Source: Isoetes taiwanensis
Lineage: Eukaryota > Streptophyta > Lycopodiopsida > Isoetales > Isoetaceae
Assembly: GCA_021234155.1 (NCBI GenBank)
Contig: JAJEKV010000094.1
Location: 3,640,535-3,704,534 of the forward strand
Direction of reading: 5' to 3'
Length of the DNA: 64,000 nucleotides
Made by a program: the position numbers and the translations under genes. Positions 1,191 to 53,800 of this stretch are shown piece after piece. The notes under the pieces are model-generated. The model did not search any database and was not told the origin of the DNA. It saw only the letters and a program-made list of their open reading frames with translations. Position 1 is the stretch's first letter, and the number at the start of each line of letters is the position of its first letter.

Positions 1191-1825
1191 AAAGCAACTT
1201 TGGCGCATCAACAATCTGTGATTAAGGCTCTTGCTTCTCCTTTTTGGGATGCAATTATAATATAATCAATTAAAATGTGGCAAAATTAATTAATTAAAAT
1301 GTGGCAAAATTAATCAAATCGCCCCTATGTACATAAATTTAGTTCATTGGATTTGTCATGGTTCCCCAATCACTTCCTCACGGTTTACATAGCATTTATT
1401 GATTGAATTTGTTCTTCTATGAATCATCAAGAAGAGGATATTATCTTACTATGCAAGTTAATGCCTTTGTTCCATTAATGATGAAGCTTTTGTGCTAGAG
1501 CCGATATATAGGCACTTGGAATTCTTGCATTGGGTTAGTACATGGTCATGCACCGTTCTCAAAATATCCACCCGATGAAGGTAGTATCCATTTTGAACAT
1601 GTGCATGATAAGTTTTCGTTCTCAAAATATTTACCAATGAAGGTAATATAAGTTTGTTCGATTTATTTGTTTCAACATGTGCTAGGTTTTTTATCTTTCA
1701 TTTAATTGTTCTGTACCATATACTTATGAGACAATAAATTTTCAACATACATTTAGTGTCACATTACATGCTACCACCTATTACGTTGATAGCCTTCACA
1801 TTGTGATTTATTTATGGCTGCTGGC
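1191..1825. other. AT-rich gap with small tandem duplications
   Basis: No gene is seen. A 24-bp unit around ATGTGGCAAAATTAAT is tandemly doubled at about 1268-1315, and a second loose repeat beginning TTCTCAAAATAT recurs near 1557 and 1618. Confidence 0.5.
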
Positions 1826-2051
1826 TATTTTTTCTCCATTCCCCTGTTTAATGGCCCCACAAAACAACTCTTCCATCTAATCTTTGGAAAGCAAGAGTGG
1901 GTCTCTTTTGACAGCCAGTACTTTAAAACTCTAGCAACAGAACGACATTGAACTTAACAGAAGTAATAGGAAGGATACGGACAGATTGGATAGACAAACT
2001 GTAAGCCTGTAAGGCAAGGGATAAAGGTTTTTCCTGAATCAGTACTGTATT
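1826..2051. repeat. 226-bp tandem repeat, unit 1 (uninterrupted)
   Basis: This unit begins with a 24-bp run that recurs exactly at 2052-2075. The rest of the unit (from 1850) recurs at 7319-7520 with roughly 85 percent identity by eye. It is the intact first copy of a tandem pair whose second copy was split by the Mutator-like element, so it shows the pre-insertion site: CCCCTGTTT followed directly by AATGGCCCC. Confidence 0.8.
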
Positions 2052-2075
2052 TATTTTTTCTCCATTCCCCTGTTT
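2052..2075. repeat. 226-bp tandem repeat, unit 2, left part
   Basis: An exact 24-bp copy of 1826-1849. It ends in CCCCTGTTT (2067-2075), the left target-site duplication of the Mutator-like element. The unit resumes at 7319. Confidence 0.8.
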
Positions 2076-2160
2076 GAGTGCAAATTTTTAGAGGGTTTTT
2101 TTAAGGATGGTTTAGGGGGTTTTTTTGTTTATGATTTAAAATGTGCATTTAAATGCACCC
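2076..2160 (+). repeat. MULE left terminal inverted repeat
   Basis: Matches the reverse complement of about 7220-7309, most clearly over the AGAGGGTTTTTTT core at 2090-2102. Identity is perhaps 70-80 percent with small gaps, by eye. Confidence 0.65.
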
Positions 2161-2707
2161 ATTTCGATGAGAGTGGCTTTGAGATGTTATATTTATGTCA
2201 TTGATTAACAAGGCATTGTAAAGTTAGATATAGAATAAAGCTCAAACTTTCACTAGAATATAGAACTTTCTACTTCCAGCTAATTACCGTTTCAGCAACA
2301 TCTATTCATATAAAAAAAAAACCTTTATGTTATAGATCGTAGTTGATTGTGCCAAGAGGATTTTAGAGCTTTTGATTTTAACTTAAAAAAGCATACTTAG
2401 AGTTATATGTTGAAGTAAAGAAAACCTTTAAGCATTTTAACCGGTTTGCATACAAGGAGAAGAAGTAAAACTTAAAGCTCTTGTCCCGTCCATATCATGA
2501 TAAAAACATCTCAATCCTGTTCACATTCATCATCTACAAGGAAACATCGCTTGCGCCTCTTATCTTTTATCTTTTGAGATCTTGATCCAACTAAAAAGCG
2601 AGCCATAGATTCTGCATAGACAGGAAGAACACTATAATAATTAGCTAATAACCATAATTAACTATTATTACAAGAAAAAAGAGGAAAGCCACTTTCATGT
2701 ACACTTA
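2161..2707. other. 3' flank of the methyltransferase gene inside the MULE
   Basis: AT-rich sequence with no open frame of note. It is presumably 3' untranslated and subterminal sequence of the element. Confidence 0.45.
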
Positions 2708-3637
2708 CTAAGCAGGTTCGTCATCTTCTTGAGGTATTTCGTCATCAGATTCTTCATCGAAAGATATATTGCGCTTCTCAGTAGTGGTAGGAGGCACTTT
2801 TTGAAGTTTTGATAAACGCGTAAATCTCACATGCTCAACAAGTGCCTTATCATTGTCAATCCCATAACAATGACGAGACAAAATAGCAGATGCAACTAAT
2901 GTAGAACCTGTTCCACTAAATAAATCTAATATCAAACCTTCTTTGGGACTCATGTTCTCAATGATGAATTTCATGAAGTCGATTGATTTCTCAATGAGCT
3001 TTCTACTTGGTGATGATTGACTCGCAGCAAGTCTACTTCCAGGTGTAAAGAAATGTTTCAGTGAAGCTTTGGCACATGAGAAACTATCACCTGAAAAGAC
3101 CACATCATAAAAGATTCATAAGATTGTTACCATATAATTTTAACATTCATTACATTAAATGAAAATATAGCCAAACTTACTTTCAGAAATGCCACTTGTT
3201 TGAAGAGATGGTTTTGTTCCCTTTCTTGACCATAAGTTAACAATAAGCACATTATTTGCAACCATCCCCATTCTATCTTTTGTGTAGCCAAAAGCTCCAT
3301 CTTGTTGCAGAAAATAAAATCTTGTAGTTTCTAGGCATTTCAGCCTTGCCTCTTTTTCTATTGTCTTCCATTGTTCTGGTGAACAAATAGATACTATCCA
3401 ACCATCATCATCTAAACATAAGGTTCCAAAGGAGAATGCAGCTTGCACCAAACTGTGGGTGCATTTGTTCCACTCTGGAACCTCCAAGTAATCGTTGCTT
3501 TGCAAGTCATGTGTGGGAAAGTCAATGATAACTAAATCATAGCCCCAATCTCTTGTAACTCCGCTTCTGCTATATTTATGAGAGTCCCTGGAATGAACTT
3601 TTGCAAACTCCTTATTCAGGTTTCGGCAAACTCCTTA
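2708..3637 (-). CDS. Beta-group DNA methyltransferase-like protein (N6-A/N4-C type), spliced, 5' end not found
   Basis: Exon A is open from about 3637 to 3181 and exon B from 3090 to the stop at 2708. The intron has clean ends (GTAAGT at 3180, TTTTCAG at 3091) and splicing keeps the frame. In order the protein shows a motif IV position reading IDFPTHD (about 3506-3526), the sequence VLIVNLWSRKG that resembles the exit strand of such enzymes, a helix-rich SRKLIEKSIDFMKFIIEN stretch, and motif I LDLFSGTGSTLVA (about 2900-2932) followed by GIDND. Catalytic motif before SAM motif is the beta-group order of bacterial amino-methyltransferases. The C-terminus is acidic. The catalytic box is DFPT, not DPPY, so activity is uncertain. 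No ATG is found in exon A, so a further 5' exon is likely. The gene lies within the MULE, divergent from the transposase. Confidence 0.7.
3091..3180 (-). other. Intron of the methyltransferase-like gene
   Basis: A 90-bp phase-1 intron on the minus strand with donor GTAAGT and a pyrimidine-rich acceptor TTTTCAG. Joining the exons keeps one open frame, which argues the gene was expressed recently. Confidence 0.7.
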
Positions 3638-3712
3638 CTTAGGCAAACTCCTTATTCAGGCAAACTCCTTATTTCAGGCAAACTCCTTATTCAGGCATAA
3701 TCTCCTTATTTC
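3605..3712. repeat. Short tandem repeat between the divergent MULE genes
   Basis: The unit GGCAAACTCCTTATTCA occurs about six times with 17-21 bp spacing and small changes, followed by a last partial copy. It overlaps the 5' end of the open methyltransferase exon and lies about 80 bp upstream of the transposase ATG, where a shared regulatory or transposase-binding region would be expected. Confidence 0.65.
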
Positions 3713-3792
3713 GTTTGTGCTGTTAAACGTATTGCACCAACTCACCCATTTTTATTTTACAGGATAATTGGCTCTGAATCTTCTTCTTCGTC

Positions 3793-6700
3793 ATGGCTCT
3801 AAAGGATTGTGATATTCTGAGTTTCACCGCATCCGATATGATCATCACCTCTCCTGGAAAGCGTATGAGAATCTTCTCGAACTTTGATAATGGAGAATGT
3901 TGTTTGAACAGGAAGTGGCTATGTGACAGTTTCCAATTCAGGTTGGTCGGTTTGTGTGTTATTCAATCCTTCACTGGTAGAGAGGGAAGCTCAATGCGCC
4001 TTGAAGAATCCACCGACGATAAAGGTGAAGTTGTTTTCAAAGCACTTGCAGCAAATGGTAACTTTATTTCTGTCGAAGGAGCGCCAATTTGTATAAGCAC
4101 TCCAAATGCACCAATACTGGTTGAAAGCCCTACTAATGAAGGTCGAGAACGATCCAACAAGCCTGTGTCAACATTTGAAAGAATTCTTTGGAGTTTTGGA
4201 TCAAGTAAGTTGAAAAAGATTTGTGAGTCAGTACAGTTTGCACTAGAAGTTGAATACCTACCGCCCTAACTATAATGATACTTTAGTTTTTGAGTTGCCT
4301 CTGATGTCCTCAAGTCCATATGCGGTATGGAACATAAAGCTTGATCCATATATTTGGAGCAAGCCAGAGAAAACGAGTCAAGCATTTGATGGTGTGGTTA
4401 AATATTCTAGATGTTGTGGACATCTAAGATGCATGAATCCTACATGTGACTATTTCCTTTCTAGAGGTGTTCCAAACGATGTTCAATGGAAAGGTACTTT
4501 GTGAAAACAACCCACGCTTGGTCTTTTGTCCAAGGTCAAGGTGTACTAGCTTGTGAATATTGTGAGGAACAACCTTCGTTGCATCTCATTATGCAAATGT
4601 GTAATCTATTACGTATTCCCCGATAATGCCAATCACACAAGATTAGTCCTTCATGTTGGGAAGCATGAACACCCATTTAGATCTCCACCAAGTCGGGAGG
4701 AAGTAATTCAGTGTAAAAATATTGTTCAAGCAAAAGCAAGTGGATCTGTTCTTAGAAAGGGGCCAAAAGAAATAGAAAAGGAAGTTGCCATGGAAATGAT
4801 GATCAATAAATTGATATCATCAGATGAAGCCTCTGAAATACATATGTGGGACAAAGAAAAAATTGATGGACTGCTAAAACAATTGCAGCCTCTTTGCTTC
4901 AAACGGAGGTATGGCTAGTATACAAAAGAGAATAACATTGTTCTCTTTTCTTCATTGCATATAACGTGAAGTCTAAGCATTTCTTCATTGCAGGATACGT
5001 CAATGGATAAACAAGACTCTAGAAACGCGTAGCCAACAGAAAGATGAGATTGGGAAGATCCTCTACTTAAAACAGCATTGCAAGTATCAGTTTTTCCATG
5101 GTTCCAAGTTTCCCTATCAACTTCACGACGAGGTTACTGGTAGATGCTACATATTCAAAATGTCAACAACTGGCCCTGGATCTGGAGTAGAACTTGTGAA
5201 CAGGATGCGTCCTGGAGGAGATTTGGAGAATGCTTGGGTCCATTTTGACCACGTTAAGCGTATACCTGGATGGACATCTTTGGCTTGCCATGTATATGAT
5301 CCTAGGTACTCATTCAACTTCAGTCATCTATGTGACTTGTATTGTTTAGTTTACCATATTTAGTTTTTGTTCATTACTTTCAGCATGCGTTGTCTATTGA
5401 AGATACCAGCTCACAAGTAAAGTTTTGGAAGAAGCTAAACAACGTGATGGTCTTAAAGACTTCCAAGCCTGCACAATTTAGAGGATTCATGGCTGATGAA
5501 GCTCAAGCCAATTGGAATGCAGTTCGTCTAGTATTTAATGATGGCCAACCAATGGAAGGCAAAGAGCGTGGATGTCAATTTCACTGGGAGCAGTGTCTTC
5601 AAAGGCATACAAATAAATATATTACACAAGAACATAGACAAGAGCATTTAACTTTATGCGAGCATGGAGATTAGCAACATCTTTGAATGAAGCTGAGATT
5701 GCTTATCATAATATTATCACATGGTGGCCAGGAAGAGCCAATCCAGGAGACCTACCTTCATTAGGATCTTGGCTTGCATGGTGGCATCAAAGGGCTAGTA
5801 GGTGGGGAAATTTCATGCATGATGGTGTTGATCTAATTACAACCTTTCGGATACCAAACACAAATATAATCCGAATACGTGCATGCAAGTTGGTTAGCTT
5901 CAAGAGGTTATGTTAGTAAGATAAGTTTGTATGATGCTTGTCTACATGATCTCAATTGAATCATGCATTAAAAAGTGCAAAGTGTAAATCACCACGGGGA
6001 TCACAATTTTGTTGGCACAGTCACGGGTGGCCACAGCGATTCGAAGAATAAGCACTCCCAGCTCTTGACATGGTAAGTCCTTGGTTTGTGTCAATGCGGT
6101 TAATTCATCTCTTTGCATCTTGGAATTAGGTTTCCACAAATCCGGGTTAAGGAGGAATAATCGAGGCAGTTCTTAAGTGGACAAGAGATAGTTCAGTACA
6201 ATAGGGACAATGGATCGGTAGCCATCGACCCGGATAAGAGGGCTCACACTTTCGGTCTAGAATCGGAATTGATGCATCAATAAGACGTAATATAGTGTTT
6301 GATGAAGCTACCTATATTGTTCATGAGTTTGATGTACCTCAAGAAGAGTGGGCTATTAGAAGAACTGAACCAGGTAGTAGAGTGAAGTGCCAGGGAAAAT
6401 TAGGACCAAATGGTAGAAAGTGCAACTCCTTTATCAATAAGATCATTACTAGATCAACGGCGACACCATGTTTCACGAGGGGGCAAGGGCGACAAATGGA
6501 AGGAAAGTCGTGCAAAAGTTTTGGTTTTGTCCTGAACATGTGCAACACACTTGGTATCCCTCTACTAACATATTACATGTGCCAGCTAGACCAGCTGATT
6601 GGCCAGTCAGTACTGGGGTCAAACTAAGCAGTGAAGAGTTGGGAGTATTAGAGAGGGGGAACTACTCAATTAGAGGGATCAACCCAGGCAATCCTTGCAT

Positions 6701-7016
6701 GCAAAATGAATCCACCACGGCGAGCAACTCAATGACAGTTATGGTGCGGTTTGGAAAACGTATGAATAAAAGAACAAAGTTGGGGAAGGAAGCAGAAGTT
6801 AGACTTGAACAAGCTCTGCAATTCGAATGTCAAGTGCTTTCAATGAAAGTCATCACACCTCAGTTAGATGTCGAATACTGTATTAGAAGACCAAATGAAA
6901 CTTACAAAGTGAGAATGCAGAATATCGAGTGCACATGTGCAGATTTCTTGGCTAGAACAACAAAACAATAATATACTCCATGCAAACATCGATGTTTGTT
7001 CCGGCCAAGATATTGA
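3793..7016 (+). pseudogene. MULE transposase with SWIM zinc finger, frame-broken
   Basis: The first open part starts at ATG 3793. Coding then continues through several frames. Cys-rich pairs near 4425-4450 (RCCGHLRCMNPTCDY) and 4550-4620 are followed by HVGKHEHPF. A well-conserved block lies at 4994-5305 after an intron at 4909-4993 (GTATGG...TTGCAG). A DDE-type core region reads ACHVYDPR and then GFMADEAQANWNAVR (about 5490-5530) and CQFHWEQCLQRHT. A WLAWWHQRASRWGNFM stretch follows near 5770-5815. The gene ends in a SWIM finger: CTC at 6930-6938 and CKH at 6981-6989. Breaks include a frame change near 4575, one near 5660, a degenerate stretch at 5900-6290, and an in-frame TAA (6969-6971) inside the SWIM finger. 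The order matches the plant MULE family. A second likely intron (5306-5383) does not keep frame. Confidence 0.75.
4909..4993 (+). other. Intron in the MULE transposase gene
   Basis: The donor GTATGG follows CGGAG, and the acceptor is CATTGCAG at 4993. Splicing gives an uninterrupted frame from the exon ending ...CFKRR into IRQWINKTLETRSQ, so the join is well supported. Confidence 0.65.
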
Positions 7017-7219
7017 ACCATGACCCTAGATTGCATTTAGGCGTCATCCAACCCGTGATCACGGATGATGTCCTCACGATTAATCCTTCGTTGATGTCCT
7101 GTTTAGTCCTACGTAACATATCTCTTTGAAATTATTTCCATATGTTAATGTTATCTTCATATTAATTATTAAGCGAAGTGTGCACTATGTCTCATGAAAT
7201 GCTTATTCATTCTAAGTTG

Positions 7220-7309
7220 TGAGGTGCAAATTTATAAATTTTAACTTTCTTTTTTTGGTATTTAACCCTCTTTGCCATCATGAAAAAAACCCTCTAATAA
7301 AAATCCCCC
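7220..7309 (-). repeat. MULE right terminal inverted repeat
   Basis: The inverted counterpart of 2076-2160, with AAAAAAACCCTCT at 7283-7295. It is followed directly by the right CCCCTGTTT target duplication (7310-7318). Confidence 0.65.
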
Positions 7310-7520
7310 CCCCTGTTTAATGGCCCCACAAAACAACTCTTCCATCTTATCTTTGAAAAGCAAGACCGGGTCTCTTTTGACAGCCAGTACTTTGAAGAGA
7401 GCGACATTGAACTCTAGCAGAAGTAATAAGAAGGATACGTACATATTGGACAGAGACAACCTGTAAGCCTGTAAGGCAACGGATAAAAAAGGTTTCTTTT
7501 GAAGCAGTACTACTGTATTT
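7310..7520. repeat. 226-bp tandem repeat, unit 2, right part with target duplication
   Basis: Starts with the second CCCCTGTTT (7310-7318) and continues with AATGGCCCCACAAAACAAC, matching 1850-2051 to its end. It is the other half of the repeat unit split by the MULE. Confidence 0.8.
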
Positions 7521-7952
7521 CTCTATCTTTATATCTAGAGTTGTACTCATTATTCCCATCAACAAATTCAGTCCCAATTCCACTCGGTAGTTATTGTATG
7601 ACTGGGGTACACTTAATGAATTTTTGTTATATCTGTCCAAGGAGAATCTGGTTTCTGGTATTTTGCACTTTTAAACATTATGATCATGTTACTTTACCAC
7701 AAGCACAAGACTATATGGAGAGTATATTGACAGGATTTTCATTTGAATGTTAAGTTATTAAAGTTGTAAACATTATAATCACGTTATTTAATCAAATGAT
7801 GCGTTCTCAAATTATTTGCATCGAAATGTTATTAACTTATTTTACACTTCACAGTCACTTCTTTGATCCAACAAGCGAAAGTTCTTTCTTTATAAATTTG
7901 TTTTATGAAATAGGCATTTAATATGCTGCATTTAGCAACCCAAGTCTCATGC
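7521..7952. other. No recognised feature
   Basis: AT-rich sequence. One 84-codon plus-strand frame covers 7499-7753, but it has no recognisable motif and odd composition. Confidence 0.5.
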
Positions 7953-8560
7953 TCTCTACCCTATATAAAACTGACATTATAGACTACAAATACGAACTTG
8001 ACATTATAGAGTCCAAATACAACCTTAAGACCATGTTTAATTCCACGCACAAAATGCCCCTATTATGCTCTCCTACCATCTTCACCTAAAATATACGCCT
8101 ACCATCTTATAAATGCTTAAACAATAGAGATAAAAAAAATCTCCAACTTCTAACCCATTTAAATTTCAAAACCACCTGTGCATACATAAAAGTGAACCAT
8201 GTGAACACATCTACACACCAATATTGAATAATACGGTATTATGAAAGTCCAAGCTAAACCCCAGCTGTATTTCAAACCACCTCTTCAAATTGTGCTTAGG
8301 CAACATAGAGGACCAACTATCTGAAGCAATTATCAAGTACATCCAGGTTCGACATCATGTTATGAGTATTTGTACTTGGTCTAATATAGCATAATCAAGT
8401 TTAAAGTCCTAAATACCACACACATAAAATCCATATATTGAACTCTGTGTCTATGAATCTTAAAAAGTTCCTCTATACCATATGTCTATTCTAGCCAATA
8501 ATGACACGGGCACCTCTTCAAATTGTTACTAAGCCCGGCAACGCCGGGCACCATAACTAG
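7953..8560 (+). mobile_element. Small non-autonomous Helitron
   Basis: The 3' end is diagnostic: a GC-rich hairpin, GCCCGGC (8533-8539), AAC loop, GCCGGGC (8543-8549), followed seven bases later by CTAG (8557-8560) and a T. A TCTCTACC start at 7953 fits the usual 5' terminus, although the base before it is C rather than A. The interior is AT-rich and non-coding. There is no Rep/helicase. Confidence 0.65.
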
Positions 8561-8737
8561 TATCATTAGAAAACAGGAATCACATTTGCATCCTTATACA
8601 CTTGGCTGCATTTACAGATTAGATTGAAGAAAGCATACTGTCAAATATCTAACATGTGGGTAAAGTTTTACCTGTTGATCAAGAAAACCAGCACATGCGG
8701 AGTAGCTTCTCTTGGTTTTGCTTGTTTTGGCTTGGAC
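8561..8737 (-). pseudogene. Duplicated exon fragment next to the Helitron
   Basis: About 175 bp that match 20841-21015 almost base for base. They cover the 3' half of the minus-strand exon annotated at 20951-21133 and its donor and intron start. The match stops abruptly at 8737 in the middle of the exon and, on the other side, at the Helitron end. It is therefore a partial gene copy. Confidence 0.75.
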
Positions 8738-8849
8738 ATTCCATTGACAAGAAATTTAGATATTTATGATATATGAGAAATCAGAAAGGTGTGTTAAATA
8801 ATGGAAGAGATAAAAAAAGACCCATGTTAAGAACACATAACTGTACGTT

Positions 8850-9424
8850 GAACACATAACAACATCCAACATATAAAAATTAAATCCCCCAACACATAAC
8901 AACCATTACATTAACAACCAACACATAACTACTATTGACATTAATTAACACAACCATTGGGTCCAACACATTTAAATTAAAATCCCCCTTAAACCCCCTT
9001 TGGTTTGGGTGTATATTCACCACGGGGGTGACTCCAGGACAACGAGCTTTGGATAGGCATATTCACCCCTTATTCCTTAATCTACACCGCATTAAAGTTC
9101 CTCGTTTGTGGGGTATGCAAGTATAAAATTTGCTATCTTGTATAACAAGATTCGCAAAATACTATAAGATTTCAAGCGGGAATACTATATGGTGTTGATT
9201 TTGTGCACGTGCAAAATACAATTATGAGGGCTCTCGCTACCCTCGTTACCCCGGTGTGAATATACACCCAAACCAAAGGGTTTAAGGGGATTTTAATTTA
9301 AATGTGTTGGACCCAATGGTTGTGTTAATTAATGTCAATAGTAGTTATGTGTTGGTTGTTAATGTAATGGTTGTTATGTGTTGGGGATTTAATTTTATAT
9401 GTTGGATGTTAATAGTTTGTGTTG
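8850..9424. mobile_element. Foldback element, copy A
   Basis: The left arm (about 8850-9030) is the inverted complement of the right arm (about 9235-9424); for example AACACAACCATTGGGTCCAA on the left answers TTGGACCCAATGGTTGTGTT on the right. The arms are about 190 bp around a 200-bp centre. The left tip is degenerate. There is no coding capacity. Confidence 0.75.
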
Positions 9425-10449
9425 CAAAAAATTTTGGCCGAGGCCTTAGGACGCCCCTTGGTGTGACAAAAATTTTAGAATTCAAACTAGAAAAAACTAG
9501 AATTCATTTTGAGACTTTCATCACATTGTAGCTTTTGACTTTCATCACAATGAAACAAATAGAACATAAGTAAAAGTTACTATAAAGATAGAGCGGATTG
9601 ATCCCATTATTCCGAAAGTCATAAAGTTTGCAACACCCATACACAAACATTTTTCAACCGAATTTAACAAAGACCTTTGGCCTCCATGGATTCTTGTGGT
9701 GAGAAACCAAAGTGGGAAACTTTTCTCGCGTGTTAGCACAAGGATCTAGAAGCCTTGGAATTTGCTTAATAACTGCCTCAAAATCTAAAAATGCATGGTA
9801 ATTTTTGCAACCTGCATTCGAATGAGCCATAAAACAATATCCAATAGCGCCAATCCTTAATAATCAATTTGGTAGGATGTGAAAGCCTACCAAACCCGCC
9901 AAAAATTACTGTTTTAGCATAGATAACTTAACCAAACATATCCATATCATACACTATCAAAACGATCTCGGAGAGAGATTTCCAACGCAATAAAAATCAT
10001 CTCAAATAGAGCTCTGGATCAAAAGTTATGATAAGAAATGTGTTGCCGGCCTTCAAGCCCTTCATGTGCCCATTATGCACCACACACACAAAAAGAGGGC
10101 TTTTGTTGTGAGCCATTGGTTGTTGACCATTACGCACCACACGCACAAAAAGGGGTTTTTGTTGTGAGCCATTGGTTGTTGACCATTATGCACCATACGC
10201 CCTGGGGGCTTTTGTTGTGAGCCATTGGTTGTTGACCATTATGCACCACACGCACAAAAAAGGGCTTTTGTTGTGAGCCATTGGTTGTTGACCATTGGAA
10301 AAAAAAAGGCTAAAATCAATGGCTCAGAAATGGTGCACTCTAGATATACGCATTAGTACATCCATTTGAATACATCACGAAATCATAGGAAAACCTTAGT
10401 GAAAAGCGTACAAAAACACAAAGAAAACCCCCTGTTATTATGCTACATA
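9425..10449. repeat. Tandem-duplication segment A
   Basis: The sequence from the foldback end to the next foldback copy. Nearly all of it recurs in order at 11026-11849. Segment A has an extra stretch of about 100 bp (near 9895-10010) and more minisatellite units than segment B. Confidence 0.75.
10071..10295. repeat. 56-bp minisatellite, four units
   Basis: Four successive units of the pattern CATTATGCACCACACGCACA...GGGCTTTTGTTGTGAGCCATTGGTTGTTGAC. The third unit has a shorter variable middle. The same repeat has about two units at 11570-11685. Confidence 0.8.
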
Positions 10450-28527: not shown

Positions 28528-29429
28528 TTACTTCAGGGATACTTTCAGGTCATCCATGTCCAAACAATGCAACGCGTCATGAAGGCACTGTATGGTATTC
28601 CCAAGAGCTATCTTCGATTCACGAATGGACATCATTGTCTCCTTAGCTAGCAACTCCACATCCACGTGCAAATGAAAGCACTCCGACTTGCCATCAACAG
28701 CAATATGCGCATCTGTAATGCGATGTTCATCAGAATCAGTGTCAAGATTCACGACCAGGCTGCAAATCGCATCTAGATTTGCCATTTCTTCAGTCTTCTC
28801 TATCTCCTTACGAGCTCCTACAAGAAACATGAAATATGTGCATAAGCACAAAGTGCGAAAATGAGCTACAGAGCAGCAAGAGTGTGATCCTCCACACCCA
28901 CGGCTATGAAACCATCCCATGGGGCTGGAATTTCGCACATCTATGGCTCTGGACACCCCTCCCCATCATCGAAGCCCTCATCACTGTCCACCTCACAACC
29001 GTTGGCCTCACCAAGACTCACATCAGCGTGAGCATTCCAATAGCGTCTTTTCCCCTTACCAACTCGCTCTACATGTACAACTCCAGGAGGTAGCCCAAAC
29101 AATACATTCCTCACATCATTACGAGAGGCATGTGCAGGATCTAGAGTCAATCTCCAGGCAGCTTCAACACGATGCTGGGAAATGAAGGCTGTGTTTGTTG
29201 GCAACACCCACGATCCACTGAATACAAACTTCTCCGTTTGCAGCATCCTACAGATGGTTTGAACAAGTAAGGCACTAATATGCCTACGGCCATGGTACAT
29301 ATGGAAATGTTTTGCTTTTGCAAACAAGTTACGATTATCAAGAGTCACGCAGTTCTTAATGTCTCCAGCCCCATACAGAGCATAGAGATTCCTACCCCTT
29401 TCAATTTGATCCGCTGTCACATTCTTCAT
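28528..29429 (-). CDS. Unrecognised two-exon protein
   Basis: Exon 1 begins at ATG 29429 and is open for over 150 codons. It is basic and His-rich at first (AKHFHMYHGRRHISALLVQT), has VEAAWRLTLDPAHASRNDVR and GKGKRRYWNAHADV, then turns acidic. Exon 2 is open from an acceptor CTTGTAG near 28821 (ARKEIEKTEEMANLDAICSL) to the stop at 28528, with many Asp, Glu and His residues. A donor A|GTGATG near 28986 would join them in frame; the next 30 codons of exon 1 otherwise run to a stop at 28941. No domain is recognised. The long open frames, consensus acceptor and upstream TATA box suggest a real gene or a well-preserved element gene. Confidence 0.5.
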
Positions 29430-31859: not shown

Positions 31860-34800
31860 ATGTATGGATCTGCCTATGACATAGAGGCCATCTTGGGTCT
31901 AGGGCTCGGTCGGTACCCACCCCTCGTGTCTGTCTCGTCCCGGTTCCCGCCCCAAAGCGTGCAAACATTGCTCCGACCTCGATCACCTCATCACTATCGG
32001 GGAGCCCTATCGGGCTCAACCTTCTCAACCGTACTTTCCTTACACTGAACATGCCTACATCCATCATTCTTGGGCCATGCGCCTCTTCCTTCACAACCAT
32101 CATCTCCCCGGGTGAACGCGGATATCCACAAGTCTCTTTTTCGCCTACCGGGGAATATCCTTTCCCTACATTTCCCCTTTGCCCTTCCTCGTTTACAACC
32201 TTCACGGATCTCAAAACCAATGCTCGGGCGACCGGTTCCTCAACCCAGATCACCCCTTCATCGGGGTCCTTGGGCACCATGCCACCTCCAACTCAACCTC
32301 AATATCCTCACTATCGCGTTCTGTCCAGATGAAACACTTTCACATCTACCTTCCCGGACTCGGCCCTGACTTATCCCACCTTTGGCAACCACGAAGGCAA
32401 ACCCTTAGACCAAAGTGCTCAGGCCCACATGGAAGGAATTTGAGGCTCTAAACGTCCCTAAATGGTCATGCGCAACCTCAACTGAAATTCCACATCTTTT
32501 CCACCACCACCCGCATGGCTCTCCTCATCAATGGCTCATGTCCAACAAAAGCCATTGGAAACAAACTGGTCGAAATGAGAACCTGCTTTTCTTTCTCATT
32601 ATGGGACCACGGATGATGATCGGCTTCATCTCAAGCAACTCAATGAACTTCAACAAGAGCCCGCAGTGCAGGGATTTTTGCGGATCGACTTCACATTACG
32701 CTTTCGATGTAAACTCAAGGAGTACCCAACCTGAGCCAGTTTTGGTCTGGTTTCTCCAAGGACTTCCCTCCGGCTATTAGACTCATGGCGGAATACACCG
32801 TCCCAAGACTTTGGAGGAGGCTATTGATCTTGTCAATCACTTTCGATCAATGTTTCCTCCCGTGGCGTGGCTCTTCGGGAGCTCCCTTTCATTCCACCCT
32901 TATGGTTCCACGGCGGGTTGTCCCGGCCTCAACACGCCAATCCGGCAGTAGCGATCGGATCTGGTGCCATATCTGCAAAATACCAAGGCCACTTGGCAAA
33001 TGAGTGCAACTCCACCAATGGCCCTCATTGCAAGAGATGCAACATGTGCAATGCAATCATGCCACGGAAGAGTGCACTTTCGCACTCATCCCACACCTTT
33101 CCGCAACAAACTGGTTTTATCAAGTGCAAACCACACCTCGGCAACAATGGCACTATCGGCCCACCGCCAGGTGCAACCAACTCAACTCTATCGGCAGCAG
33201 GGCAACAGCGGGGACCCAACCCGTCCTCCTTTTGATCCTTCTAAAGCTTCGGTGTTATCAGCATCAAGAATGGGGTCATACCACCACGGCGTGCCCTCAA
33301 CTTCCACAAGTTCGAGTCTGACTTCACGGCACCAATCCGGACCACATCGGTCAGCCTCATGGCTTACCAACTCTGGATTGCTAATGGCAAACAAGGCGAG
33401 ACCGATTCTTAAGAAGCCACCAAGGCGCCTCCGGCAATGGCGCTATCAACCAGCTCCGACAAATCAACCTCACTGGATCAACAAGCACGGGGAGGAAATT
33501 TTTCAGGCACTTAATCCTCCGGTCCGACCATCAAATTGGGTTGGTTTGGTTTCCACGCCCGACGAGGGCATCCGTCCCTTGACCATTATTCCAAATGGCC
33601 GCGCAACACGCGCTGCGGTTGACACCATTCCTCATGAGGGCGAAAAAAGGTTCACTTTGCACGACTTGGAGAAACTAATGCCACATGTCATGCCTAAAGT
33701 TAAGCCAAAGCATTTTAAATCTCATGCAAAGGCTGCTGAAGGCCGCCGCGCTAGCGAATGTTCATGCCACCACGAGCTCAACAAAGACAAGATACACCTT
33801 CCACATCTCAACCTCCGCTCTCGGGCGTATCCCCATATTCTTTGCGGTTGACTTACTCAAAGTTCTTTGCTTCACTACCACGCCTCCGGCACCCGTGGAA
33901 CCCGGCGGATCCTTTTTCTCATGTGCCTCACGGAACTCCAAGAGGGAGCTAGCCAAGATCAAAATTCCTTTAAAGCTTGGCCACCATTTTGAAACTTCGT
34001 CCTGCTCTCAAGGACCCGGTTACCACTCCCAAGCTGTTTTAGTTGGAATTTTGTAGCTACCTCTACACCCACGGTCCATGCCACGGTGGGTAATCGTCAA
34101 GTCAACCATGTTCAAATAGATGGAGGTAAGCGCGGTCAATCTCATCGCGGATAAACTCGCCAAACAAAATGGGCATCACTAACTCTTTCGTTGCCCCATA
34201 TGACATCAAGTTGGCTAATGGCCATATCACGCGCGACCTCAAAAAGTCACGCCTCTTCTTCACATCAACATCGGTGATCTCCGGCTTCCCCATGGAATTT
34301 GGAGTTTGGAAAGGCGGCGAAGATCCGGTGACTATGAAATGTTGGTCGGCGGACCTTTTCTCCCGCCGAGGCCAAGGTATCCATTCTTTGGGCCACGGAC
34401 GGTTAGTCATCAGCGATGGTCACCTCAATTCCACCATGGACTTTACAAGCAGGCGGGGATCATTTTACGTTGAACATGCGGAACCCTCTCTCTCCGGACC
34501 GCGGATTACGGAAGCTCGGAATATTTATCAAGTTCGGGCTCCACTGCGAGTGCGCCTCTGTCATCCTACCCGAATATCTTGATCCTTGGGGAGAAATGAC
34601 TCTTGATTAGGGACCAGGTTGTGGCTGCTTTAATTGACCCTTACCTGGCTCCTTGCCATAGAATCAACGTGTCGATCACTTTTCGATCGTCGAACCTCCT
34701 GCAACCCCCTCGTTGATGTACACAGTCATGTCATGAAGCAACCTCTGGCTGGATGAAACTTCGGCCACCTCTTTTTTTTTCACGCAGAAAGTGCCATGCA

Positions 34801-37720
34801 TCTGTTATGCTCCAACCTCCACACACATTGTCGGTGGTACCGTGATACCCCATATTGGGACTCCGGTCGAGATGCGGGGGGGCGTTGGCAGCAATCAGCC
34901 GTCCGGAGCTTCGCGCAAATCTTCCGACACCCTATCGTAACAGGGCTGTCAAACTTTTCCAAAAAGTTCAAACACATCTTTGCACGGAGCTGAGAGATCT
35001 TGGGAATCAACAAAAAGCTTGGGGAACTCACCATTCCTACCAAATCTGATGCAAGACCGGTTTAGCAAAGCGGCGGCGACGGGCTCAACCCTAATTTCCG
35101 CAGGTGATCGCGTCCAGGCGGAAATTGACAAACTCGCTAGCTGCGGGTTTTGATCTATGAGGTCAAACATTACGAATGGGTGAGCCCCCATAGTCATTGC
35201 CCTCAAACACAATGGTAAGATCCGTGCATGTGGACTACCTAAAACTCAATCGAGCCACGGGCGTGATCATTTTCCACTTCCCTTCACGGACCGGGTTCTA
35301 GAAGAGGTTACTTTGGACATGAGATGTACTCCTTCATGGATGGTTTTTCGGCTACAATCAGATCTCAATCAAAGAGTTACGATCAACTCAAGACTACTTT
35401 CACCACCGGGTGAAGTTCTTTTTGCCTACAAGGTGGTCCCTTTTGGATTATCAAACTCTCCATCAACGTTTCAACGCATCATGCTCTCGGTTTTCCATGA
35501 TTTCATGAAGGAAAATCCCTTCTTACAAATCTTTCAAGATGACTTCTTTGCGCCTCGGTTCATGGCTGACCATTTGGATAAATTGGAACTTCGTCTTCCG
35601 AAATGTGATGAGTCAGGCATTAGTCTCAATCTGAGAAATGCACCTTTTGCGTCACCTCGGGGAGTTACGTTGAGCCGTTATGTCGATGCAGCGGTATCAC
35701 CACAGATCTGCCAAAATCGGTTAATGTGCTCAAGGCTCAAGCACCAGCCAATATCAAGGAGACACGCTCTTTCACGGGTAAGGTCAATTATTACTCCACC
35801 TTCATACCGGACTAGCAGCCATTGCAGATCCCATTCATAAACTCACGGGTGAGCCCGATCCACACGGGCTTGGAATTCCCAGGCGGATCGCGCTTTCCAA
35901 CGGAAGAAGCTTTTGCTTTACCTCGGGCACCGGTTCTTGTTCCTCCTCAATGGGACAAGCCCTTTCATGTTCATGTCGATGTCGATGTCCGGCGTTTGCT
36001 ATTGGGCTGTTCTTTCTCCAGAATATGATCGCTGCTCGACAAACCAAATCGATCACGCCCGGTAGAAAACTCAATTACTGGCCGCCTTTGTATTCGCCCA
36101 CAGGCGTGAAGCTTTGGGTCTCATTTTACGTGTCCAACGCTTCCGTCACTACCTTTTGGGCGATCAAATCAAGTTCTTTGTGGACCACCAAGCACTCCTT
36201 TATTTGATCAACAAGTCCACGCCCGCCGGCGCATTGCTTTCGTTGGGTCCTTCTTCTCAAGAATTTGCCCCTTTGAAATCGTTCATAAGGCTAGGCAAAT
36301 CTCATGTCGTCCGGATTATCTTTCACGCATCCACCACGATGATCCCTCAACTGGAGTCTCGGGCGCCTTTCACGATGCTTTCGGCTCTTTTTAGTCACGG
36401 CAACACCATTGGTTCCATGATTTTCAGCCAGTACCTCCTCCACGGGTGCTCTTCCACGAAGCGAGCGCCTCTCTCCGCCCGGCAATCCGTCGACATCAAT
36501 TTCTCCGCGAGGTCCGTGACTACACCATGGTTGCGAGGCATCTCTACAAAAGGTAAGGACACCATCCATCGACTTGCCTTGTTTCTACCTCATGAAGTTC
36601 GGATATTGTTAGAGAAGCTCATCAAGGGCTGGGTGGTGGTCATTTTCATGGTGACACCCGCGACGCATAAAATCCTTCTAGCACGTATTTTTGGCCTGAC
36701 TCTTCAAAAGACGCTCACATACGCGTGGAGTGTGATGCTTGCCGTACGTGGGGATGACTACGACGGCCGTGGCGGAGCTCTTCCTTGACGCCGATTACCA
36801 CCCACTTCCCTTCCGGCAAATGGGGAATGGATTTTGTGGGACCCATCGACCCTCTGTAGCGGCACAACTGTGGATTACGTCTGGTTCTCAATCGACTATG
36901 CTACTAAATGGGCTAAGCTTCGCACTTCAGGTTAACAACACCGCAAAGAAGTACGCCCGGGGTCCTTTATCAACAAATCATCCGCGATTCTTGCCCCACC
37001 TGGAAGCCGGTCGTGATCGTGGTGTCCATTTCATCAATCATACCATAAAGGAAGGAGGCGAAATTATCTCGATCCATCATCACAAGAGCACACCTTTACT
37101 ATCCTCAAGGTAATGGTTTGGCGAAAAGCACCAACAAGACTCGGTCACCATTCTCAAGAAAATTTGTGACGCTTCGCATCGCCTTGGCAAACAAAAACTT
37201 CCAAGCGTTCTTTGGGCCTACAATACTTGTTTCAAAATTACTACGAGTCACACTCCTTTCAAATTGGTTTATGGTCATGAAGCTCTCATGCCGGTTTGAA
37301 TACATCCTTCCAATGCCCGTTTTCAATGACTCACGCCCATAATCCGCTTTGCCGACTCAAAGAAAGGGTCTATCAATTGGAACAATTGGATGAACCGAAG
37401 GATGCTTATATTCGAGTTCTTCATGGACAACGGTTGCAAAAATCTTTACATGACAAGCGTCACGAAGACAAAAACATTCAAAGAAAGGCGATTTGGTTCT
37501 TCTTTATGATTCAATTAAAAATTTTCCGGAAAGCTTAAGTTTCGTTGGCTTGGCCCTTATCAAATTGTTCAAGTGGTTTGTTGCGTTTTTCCAATGGTTG
37601 GAGTTAGATGGCACTCCATTACCTACTTGGTTAATGGTTTTCGACTCAAAACATTTCATCACCACGTAGCGAAAATCAACAAATGAATCTGATTCAAGCG
37701 GCAAACACCACGAGTGAGTA
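31860..37720 (+). pseudogene. gag-protease-RT-RNaseH-integrase region, copy 1, frame-broken
   Basis: In order: a gag start at ATG 31860; Pro-rich gag; two CX2CX4HX4C zinc knuckles (about 32965-33007 and 33036-33080), each disturbed by a small indel; retropepsin-like IDGG near 34116-34130; RT from about 35050, with the box FQDD at 35532-35543 and LGKVNYYSTF-like sequence near 35785; RNase H with HVDV near 35968 and a VDHQALLYLINKS block near 36180-36215; integrase with GGHFHGD (near 36633) and CDAC (near 36737) zinc-binding pairs and the FVGP-type core near 36830; and a GP-Y-type C-terminal module near 37540. The longest open piece is under 300 codons, so no intact polyprotein can be made from this copy as read. 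Confidence 0.8.
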
Positions 37721-50692: not shown

Positions 50693-50822
50693 CCGCTGGG
50701 CCAAGGTATGATTAAATCCTACTTTCCCCGCCATGTTCCGTCCAAATTTCACGCCCGAAGAACTCCCTTTTCTCGGCCTATGATCTCGCTTTGAGCCATC
50801 AACAGCTGAAACCGTTTCGACA

Positions 50823-53800
50823 TGTATGGATCTGCACGGCGACATAGAGGGAGGCCATCTTCGGCCTTTCCAGGGCTCATCCGGCGCCAGGCCCACCCTC
50901 GTGGTCCTCCGTTTCGCCCCAGCCTCCCTCTGCTGCAAACATTGCTCCAAATGTACCGGGCCACCTCACTATCAGAGCCCTATCGCTCCCACCTTCTCAA
51001 CCGCATTTTCATACACCAACATGCCTACATCCATCATTCTTCGTGCCATACGCCTTTTCCTTCACAACCATCATCTCCCGGTGGGCACGGATATCCACAA
51101 GTCTTTTTGCGCCTACCCGTGAATATCCTTTCCTTGCATTTCCCACCGCTTCCTTCCTTTGCTATAACCTTACAGATCTCAAACCAATGCTCAGGCAGCT
51201 TCAGCTCAACCGCAGTCACCCCTTCATCGTGGTCCTTCAGCACCATGCCACCTCCAACTCAACCTCAATATCCTCACTATAATCGTTCTCCGCCCAGCCA
51301 AGCACTTTTCACATCTACCTTTCGTAACCTAAAACCGACTTATCCCACCTTTGGCAACACGAAAGGCAAACCCTTAGACCAAAGTGCTCAGCCCACATGG
51401 AAGAATTTGAGGCTCTAGTCGTCCTAAATGGTCATGCTAACCTCAACTGAAATTCCACATCTTTTCCACCACCGCTGCGGGTTTCCCTCATCAATGGCTC
51501 ATGTCCAACAAAAGCCATTGAAACAAGATCGGTCCGGAAATGAGAACCGCTTTTCTCATTATGGGGACCACTTGGATGATGATCAACTTCATCTCAAGCA
51601 ACTCAATGAACTTCAACAAGAGCCCACTGAGTTCCGCCTGGATTTTGCGTGATCGACTTCACATTCTCGCCAAGAACTCAAGGAGTACCCCAACACGAGC
51701 CGATTTTTGTCCTGGTTTCTCCAAGGACTTCCTCCAAATATTCGACTTTTCATGACGGAATACCAAGGGCCCCAAGACTTTGGAGCAGGCTATTGATCTT
51801 GTCAATCACTCGGGCCAATGTTTCTCCCGTGGGCGGGCTCTTCAGAGCTCCCTTTCATTCCACCTGTTATGGTTCCACAGACGGTTGTCCAAACCCCTCA
51901 ACACGCCAATCCACAATAGCCAGATCTGTGCCATATCTGCAAATACCAAGGCCACTTGGCAAATGAGTGCAACTCCACCAATGGCCCGCCCATTGCAAGA
52001 GATGCAACATGTGCAATCATGCCACCTGAAGAGTGCACTCGCACTCATCCCACACCTTTCCGCAACAAACCGGTTTATCAAGTGCAAAACCACACCTCAA
52101 AGAATAATCGCACTATCAGCAGCCACCACTTCAAAAGTAACCAACTCAACTCTATCAAGAATGTAGAGCAACAACGGGGACCCAACCCACGCCCCTCCTT
52201 TTTTGATCCTTCTAAAGCTCAAAGTGTTATCACCGCCAAGAATGGGGTCATACCACCACGGGCGGCGTTCTCAACTTCCACAAGTTCGTGTACAACTTCC
52301 GGCACCAATCGATTCACATCAGTCCGCCTCACGGCTTACCAACTCGATTGCTAATGGCAAACAAGGCCCGAGACCAGTTCTTAAGAAGCCACCAAGAGCG
52401 CCAAAGAATCACGCTTATCAACCAGCTCCAAAGAATCAACCTCACCGATCAACAAGCACAGAGGAAATTTTTCGTGCACTTAATCCTCCAAATTCAAATT
52501 TGCCATCAAATTGGGTTGGTTTGGTTTCACGCCGCACTGTGGCATCACGCCCCTTGACCATTATTCCAAATGGCACGCAACCCGCCTTTGCAGCTTGACA
52601 CCATTCCTCATGAGGATCTAAAAAAGGTTCACTTTGCACCCGACTTGGAGAAACTAATGCCACATGTCATGCCTAAAGTTCGCCAAAGCATTTTAAATCT
52701 CATGCAAGCCGCTGAAGGTCGCGACGCTAGCGAATGTTCATGCCACCACCGAGCTCAACAAAGACAAGATACACCTTCCACATCTCAACCTCCACGCCTC
52801 GACGTATCCCAATATTGCCGCAGAGGTTGACCTACTCAAAGAAGTTGCCGCTCACTACCACGCACTCCAAAGACCCGTGGAACCAAAGAGATCCTTTTTC
52901 TCATGTGCCTCGAACTCCAAGAGGAGCTTGGCCAAGATCAAAATTCCTTTAAGCTTGGCAACCATTTTGAAACTCTTTGTCCGCTTCTCAAGGACCAAGC
53001 TTACCACTCCCAACCGCTTTAGTTGGGCCGTGGGCTACCTCTACACCCACGGGCCCATGCCACGGGTAATCAAGAAGTCAACCATGTTCAAATAGATGGA
53101 GGTAGCGCTAGCCAATCTCATCACGGATAAACTCCGCAAAACAAATGGGCATCACACAACTCTTTCGCGGCCCCATATGACATCAAGTTGGCTAATGGCC
53201 ATATCACGCTGACCTCAAGGCGCCACGCTTCTTCTTCACATCAACATCGGTGATCTCCGCTTCCCCATGGAATTTGAGTTTGGAAAGCCGGCAAAGATCC
53301 GTGTGACTATGAAATGTTGGTCGGCAGACCTTTTCTCCGCCAGCCAAGAGTATCCATTATCGGGCCACGGACCGCTTAGTCATCACCGATGGTCACCTCA
53401 ATGCCACCATGGACTTGCAAACAAAGCAGATCATTTCGCTGAACATGAAACCCTCTCTTCTCGACACCTGATTCGAGGAAGCTCGAACATTATCGTTCAG
53501 TGCTCCACCGCGAAATCGGCTTCGGCCATCCTACCTGCAATATATGCCGATCCTTGGGGAGAAATGACTTTTGATCGTGACCAGCCGGTTGCTTTAATTG
53601 ACCCACCGCTCCTTGCCATAGAATGCAACGTGTCGATCACTTTTCAGATGCTGAACCTCCCCGCAACTCCCCGTTGATGTACACACCGCCATGAAGCAAC
53701 CTCACGGATGAAACTCAGCCACCTCTTTTTCACCACGCAGAGTGCCACGATCCTCGCTCTCAGCCCAACCTCCTCGCACACATTGTCCAGATAATCGGGT

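Follow-up and report, generated by a model that had tools for sequence, protein, structure and literature searches.

Accessory genes beside the transposase are already known from Mutator-like elements (MULEs), and the closest described system is that of the VANDAL elements (e.g., Hiun) in Arabidopsis, where the accessory protein VANC is described as binding tandem-repeated motifs in non-coding parts of its own VANDAL family and lowering methylation (PMC5735166, PMC13317346, PMC10398659). The Isoetes taiwanensis element described here resembles VANDAL in being a plant MULE with an accessory gene beside the transposase and in a motif that by eye is like the SWIM finger listed for VANDAL in the MULE survey (PMC6446971), and the direct repeats of its intergenic region recall the target repeats reported for VANC (PMC5735166). 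The differences are that VANC is described as a motif-binding, hypomethylating protein, whereas the accessory gene here is methyltransferase-derived and matches PF01555, and that VANDAL elements are described as non-TIR (PMC13317346) or with TIRs of 46–174 bp (PMC6446971), while the Isoetes element has imperfect inverted ends. Other eukaryotic MULE clades share the 9-bp duplications and extra or antisense open reading frames and have a SWIM finger, which the motif here resembles by eye, but the accessories named in the relevant passages of the survey are PMD, FAR1, SET, an ovarian-tumour gene, PHD and unknown frames (PMC6446971), and its text contains no word beginning with "methyl". The mariner elements of algal giant viruses are likewise DNA transposons with their own methyltransferase gene, but by their description they belong to another superfamily, also carry an endonuclease, are viral and have other methyltransferase domains (PMC3627910). 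No MULE with a methyltransferase gene was found among the papers listed from the open-access PMC literature on transposon-borne methyltransferases and plant PF01555, and the word "methyltransferase" is absent from a review of 2026 on gene capture by plant transposons (PMC13317346). The prokaryotic beta-class amino-methyltransferases (PF01555; DpnA 5hfj, CcrM) are similar in the motif order IV...X-I (by eye) and in the SAM-motif half. They differ from the Isoetes protein, which has D-(F/L)-P-T at motif IV, an N-terminal part of about 640 residues with no match among the families searched, and eukaryotic introns. DIRS retrotransposons, which are tyrosine-recombinase retroelements unrelated to MULEs, also contain an adenine-methyltransferase-like domain. 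What appears new against this literature is a MULE accessory gene of a methyltransferase-like type.

Within the window, meaning the whole 64,000-nucleotide stretch of I. taiwanensis DNA that was analysed, positions 2076–7309 are a Mutator-type element that pairs a broken transposase with the remnant of a methyltransferase-like gene. The element is flanked by the 9-bp target-site duplication CCCCTGTTT, located at 2067–2075 on the left and directly repeated at 7310–7318 on the right; its left end (2076–2121, plus strand) starts with GAGTGCAAATTTTTAGAGGG and is matched by an inverted right end (7264–7309, minus strand), with imperfect inverted repeats of 37 nt that are 81% complementary (2085–2121 and 7264–7300). 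An earlier note, made from the letters of this DNA alone, had described two head-to-head genes inside exact borders, and this description holds. GAGTGC forms the initial six bases of the left end in the window copy and in the copies L020, L043/L044 and L045 alike. The target is present as a tandem repeat with a unit of about 226 bp, and it is the second unit that holds the element. The methyltransferase-like gene lies on the minus strand, with its last exon at 2708–3090 (motif X-like EKS, SAM motif I LDLFSGTGS, stop codon at 2708–2710), a clean intron, as in the earlier note, of GT-AG type and 90 nt at 3091–3180, and a truncated penultimate exon at 3181–3634 that contains the motif IV position. 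The order of motif IV before motif I, also reported earlier, is correct, but motif IV reads DFPT and not DPPY. A 17-bp minisatellite with a deletion scar (about 3612–3676) occupies 3601–3702, and the transposase follows on the plus strand with exon 1 (3793–4908, broken), exon 2 (4994–5305, borders by eye against L020) and exon 3 (5384–7050, broken, end approximate), the last of which includes the conserved GFMADEAQANWNAV ... HWEQCL stretch and a SWIM-like C-x-C ... C-x-H motif (6930–6989) split by an in-frame stop.

The element is called Mutator-type because of its 9-bp duplications, its ends and its motif layout, the Pfam profiles being silent on the transposase: neither the window pieces, nor the 854-aa product of L020, nor the C-terminal stretch matched the Pfam MULE and SWIM profiles. 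As for the MULE transposase with a SWIM finger described in the earlier note, the SWIM-type CxC...CxH was seen by eye in the window, in L021 and in the protein P0006, a layout that the profiles do not confirm. A protein search with the L020 transposase gave six relatives (P0001–P0006) at 32–38% identity, none of the six with a precomputed Pfam domain; the transposase core is conserved with them and appears MULE-like by eye, and P0006 spans the transposase C-terminus including the SWIM-like motif, where Pfam SWIM reaches only E 8.

The I. taiwanensis genome was searched over 1.66 Gb in 1110 contigs, where the left 1040 bases gave at least 46 DNA matches at 72–100% identity (40 of 137 candidates scored), and 20 genomic stretches were compared together with the window copy, making 21 copies. 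L020 is about 9.6 kb long, with both ends and a perfect 9-bp duplication; its methyltransferase gene runs to about 957 codons in five coding exons, and by eye there seems to be one more intron before the start codon. Compared with it, the window copy lacks L020 positions 1477–5993, about 4.5 kb in which L020 has its intergenic region and the remainder of the methyltransferase gene; this loss takes the methyltransferase N-terminus, its scar sits in the 17-bp minisatellite, and what is left is about the last 270 of some 957 residues, without an ATG ahead of motif IV. The copy in the window is dead and internally deleted. The contrast drawn in the earlier note between an open methylase and a broken transposase, read there as a hint of selection or reuse, does not survive, since the gene is a truncated remnant whose open frame is no sign of reuse, and reuse of this copy is rejected on account of the truncation. 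Element ends are retained in all eight copies compared, and perfect 9-bp target duplications were observed in six of the eight copies examined, with none clean in L011 and L015. Both genes lie head to head in the same order in 12 of the 21 copies, and within the same ends and 9-bp duplications in the window copy, L009, L016, L020 and L021; the transposase was not found in nine of the 21 within the 3.2–9.7 kb read, and one of these nine, L010, keeps its two ends although its transposase is gone and its methyltransferase is incomplete. None of the copies read has both genes intact, all having lesions in one or both, such as L019, whose nearly whole methyltransferase has no in-frame stop but foreign DNA inserted into its exons. 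Open stretches occur among the more distant methyltransferase loci, of which L053 was read as one. Direct repeats abound in the DNA that separates the two genes. A PPR protein is encoded in the stretch L046.

Genome-wide, the methyltransferase protein gave at least 145 matches (77 of 1188 first-look candidates scored) and the transposase protein at least 187 (126 of 1078 candidates scored), and the main listed DNA and protein matches were merged into at least 84 methyltransferase and at least 134 transposase loci, omitting additional exon matches within a locus already included, matches confined to the left end and whatever lay beyond the listing, and keeping C907:36050823 and C925:2360430 as methyltransferase loci although little or no coding exon is covered in them and neither is paired. 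At least 37 methyltransferase–transposase pairs lie within 20 kb of each other, and all 37 are divergent, with none tandem and none convergent, against 0.27 pairs expected by chance in any orientation, which rejects chance proximity. The methyltransferases of the paired loci are 31–98% identical to the query, including some at just 31–37%, such as C1034:26602060, whose transposase partner is 4.4 kb distant, and four further paired loci (L009, L015, L016 and L044) were identified by direct comparison. Methylase matches thus do sit beside transposases, as the earlier note had asked, and its proposal of a Mutator-like element carrying its own methyltransferase-like gene extends across the family. 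Copies of the MULE without the methylase, which that note had named as evidence against it, were encountered in part: L043 has about 0.6 kb from its left end to the transposase with no methyltransferase match there, and no partner was found among the matches listed for 97 of 134 transposase loci and 47 of 84 methyltransferase loci.

Similar evolutionary patterns were observed for the two genes. Unrooted trees of both separate group A (window copy, L009–L014, L018, L019, L022 and L023) from group B (L015–L017, L020 and L021), with a support of 0.999 for B together with L026–L028 in the methyltransferase tree and 1.000 in the transposase tree; L024–L027 were excluded from the counts that follow, and L028 entered only a variant of the methyltransferase count, the transposase count and the segment rates. 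For the methyltransferase, 66 silent and 49 replacement differences are fixed between A and B, against 93 and 214 within the groups, corresponding to dN/dS of 0.18 and 0.57, respectively (Fisher p 5e-7), or 0.23 and 0.58 when at least three copies per group are required (p 9e-4). For the transposase, counted over the first 840 codons and with only three group A copies, 61 silent and 34 replacement differences are fixed against 72 and 110 within groups (dN/dS 0.15 and 0.42, p 1e-4); the copies are relatives and not a population sample, so that all these p-values are guides. Wrong reading frames, used as a control, gave fixed ratios of 1.2–1.7, and fixed divergence amounts to 7–14% in the four introns against 2–5% in the coding exons. 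The low fixed dN/dS and the faster divergence of introns indicate that the methyltransferase and the transposase were both maintained during activity, and the pattern is that of two proteins under purifying selection while the family was active, with decay of the copies afterwards. The dN/dS below 1 sought for the methylase was thus found. A and B are parted in both trees, and discordance by identity was observed between L044 and L045. Among four diverged transposase loci read upstream, with L042 chosen for its nearby methyltransferase match, the methyltransferase is present in L042, L044 and L045 and absent in L043; of the latter two carriers, L044 is the nearer by its transposase (72%, exon 1) and the more remote by its methyltransferase (46% and 63%, two parts), while L045 is the more remote by its transposase (56%) and the nearer by its methyltransferase (60% and 76%, two parts). 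Either module swapping or uneven rates would explain this discordance, for which there is no methyltransferase outgroup.

The C-terminal portion of the methyltransferase-like protein of about 957 residues is a SAM-binding domain of the PF01555 type, preceded by an N-terminal part of about 640 residues. The window product, through its last exon, matches PF01555 (N6_N4_Mtase) with E 3.8e-11 and 43.8 bits, above the curated cut-off of 26.7 and with SAM motif I, as expected of the beta class, the match covering only the motif X–I half. The canonical beta-class motif IV is (D/N/S)PP(Y/F/W), with a final aromatic residue needed for base stacking. Each of the five groups examined, namely A, B, L042/L045, L044 and L053, instead shows D-(F/L)-P-T: DFPT in 14 of 15 fully readable group A and B copies, with one DFPI (L014), DFPT again in L042/L045 and L044, and DLPT in L053. 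Taken group by group, the same five also retain the SAM motif D-x-(F/L)-(S/A/T)-G-T-G-S and, in the motif X region, E-K-S; departures in motif I occur in single decayed copies (GTCS in L010, L011, L014 and L023; GTSS in L018), and there are gaps in the decayed copies L021, L022, L025 and L028. FLCWDGNHRT is preserved in the N-terminal half of three aligned sequences, and relatives at about 36–80% identity retain D-(F/L)-P-T and the SAM motif, and DGNHR too is retained in the three that were aligned. On these alignments the D-(F/L)-P-T variant is not decay, as it holds over large distances. Because motif IV has neither the canonical DPPY nor its final aromatic, catalysis is uncertain and may be lost, the protein is labelled methyltransferase-like and not a certified enzyme, and the DNA methylation suggested for it earlier is not supported. 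No protein homologues were found among 5.8 billion proteins at E 0.01 for the window part or at E 0.1 for the long protein, and none for the C-terminal 567 residues in GTDB contigs and IMG/VR by pattern scans, which reach close relatives only; phage tblastn gave weak matches, mostly over motif I (best E 2e-4). The N-terminal two thirds had no match in family or solved-structure searches (Pfam, PHROGs and PDB). A ParB/sulfiredoxin-like reading of the DGNHR stretch received no support from the same searches.

A different family was recovered by the PF01555 profile search of the genome, in which at least 150 of 1443 candidates were scored and listed, every one of them exceeding the cut-off. The loci read from it have DLPY as motif IV and LDAFSGSGTT as motif I, with L047 broken, and share with the window family the motif I region alone. 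By DNA search this family has at least 40 copies at 83–100% identity, nearly all near full length (40 of 1175 candidates scored), and over 1,000 candidate loci in the same genome. The shared sequence ends at the stop codon in two copies and about 300 bases further on in L047.

That the gene pair recurs head to head, and that the gene is under purifying selection like the transposase, makes the methyltransferase-like gene a selected accessory gene and not a one-off capture. MULEs often capture host gene fragments, and the window copy alone, a truncated fragment with an intron, would fit a Pack-MULE that acquired a host gene fragment once and carried it passively; for the family this is contradicted by the 37 of 37 head-to-head pairs among the matches listed, spread over 31–98% identity, by the purifying selection (0.18 vs 0.57), by copies sharing the gene order with both genes moved inside 9-bp duplications and by the existence of full-length gene copies, so that one-off capture, the earlier note's own refuter, is very improbable. 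Equally remote is a host methyltransferase gene family in whose neighbourhood MULEs prefer to insert, for which the 47 of 84 methyltransferase loci without a transposase neighbour among the matches listed would speak, but against which stand the five copies with both genes inside the same ends and duplications and the complete lack of tandem or convergent pairs. The anatomy and the selection of a two-gene Mutator-type clade are almost certain, and the explanation as a whole, in which its second protein acts as an accessory factor on its own element, is judged probable.

The recurrent pairing and the conservation suggest that the second gene serves the spread of the element itself. The second protein would bind element DNA, at the ends or in the intergenic region with its many repeats, and, whether by SAM-dependent modification or just by binding, would keep the element active against host silencing or, alternatively, license its transposition; a VANC-like role would thereby have been reached from a bacterial-type methyltransferase. 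Such a self-directed anti-silencing or marking role, drawn by analogy with VANC, has a little under an even chance, and either an enzymatic or a binding-only version may apply. An active amino-methyltransferase, which despite D-(F/L)-P-T would methylate the element's adenines at N6 or its cytosines at N4, so that its own transposase recognises the marked ends or host 5mC silencing is resisted, is rather unlikely: the SAM motif I and motif X region kept in five of five groups, the PF01555 match above the cut-off, the retained D and second P of motif IV, the DLPY of the second methyltransferase family in the same genome and the report that bdelloid rotifers use 4mC as an epigenetic mark (PMC8885841) favour it, but Thr replaces the motif IV aromatic in five of five groups and further motif I changes occur in single copies. 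A pseudo-enzyme, with the methyltransferase fold serving as a SAM-bound or DNA-binding regulator (a transposition cofactor or a repressor of its own element), is put at about one chance in several; motif IV altered near-identically in every group read, in a protein nonetheless conserved under selection, is consistent with it, but the SAM-binding motif is conserved too and would be needless in a pure DNA binder.

Whether 6mA or 4mC is meaningful in plant nuclear DNA, and what writes it, is disputed. A selected bacterial-type methyltransferase-like gene in a transposon family is a concrete candidate for a plant 6mA/4mC writer, and the self-directed accessory factor would give a second, separately derived accessory protein beside VANC for how DNA transposons may counter silencing. 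In this clade the gene is old, occurs in several families and was possibly swapped among them. It is conceivable, though doubtful, that a plant Mutator-type clade has had its own SAM-dependent amino-methyltransferase since before the divergence of its families (to about 36% methyltransferase identity), writing 4mC or 6mA on its own DNA to evade host silencing or to license its transposase; if true, and given the second, much larger methyltransferase family of this genome, mobile-element-borne amino-methyltransferases could be a major, overlooked non-5mC source in some plants.

The flanking DNA of the Mutator-type element carries a tandem duplication of about 226 bp (window positions 1826–2075 and 7310–7510), with the element inserted in the second copy. 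Elsewhere in the window, the minus strand at 28941–29483 matches the HUH endonuclease domain of Replitrons weakly (E 0.005, under the Pfam cut-off) and is possibly a Replitron remnant. Two degenerate retrotransposon regions were detected at 32900–36800, with matches to RVT_1 and RT_RNaseH, and at 50800–53700, where the frames appear by eye similar to those of the former.

Another, much larger family of PF01555 methyltransferases was also observed in the same genome (L046–L049, L052, and the block L050+L048+L051 at C1066:8244600–8257300). Its motifs are DLPY (motif IV) and LDAFSGSGTT (motif I), as seen in L046, L048 and L049, and open frames occur in many copies. All 150 of the PF01555 matches scored in the genome, the best of 1443 candidates, exceed the Pfam cut-off, and the 40 second-family DNA copies scored, the best of 1175 candidates, are all 83–100% identical. 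No vehicle of these methyltransferases was found at L046–L049, L052 or the L050+L048+L051 block. Big, broken frames (IIHDNMDQSKTCLPQ...) adjoin the methyltransferase in the L048 block (block positions 7230–10073, minus strand) and look by eye like the transposase of another DNA transposon; a Pfam search of these frames returned no match, and they are absent from the other second-family copy compared.

The copy L043 (C1034:19480000–19488000) has a transposase 73–74% identical to that of the window family, and no methyltransferase match was detected in the approximately 0.6 kb between its left end and the transposase. The diverged locus L053 (G000:C1034:26602060–26603740) exhibits an open methyltransferase stretch of 560 stop-free amino acids, 36% identical to the window family, lying head to head with a transposase at a distance of 4.4 kb, and possibly belongs to a branch of the two-gene element clade that is younger and more intact. 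The nearest family to the window family differs between the transposase and the methyltransferase, as observed for L044 (C372) and L045 (C1037), a discordance that would fit either an exchange of the methyltransferase module between families or uneven rates of evolution.
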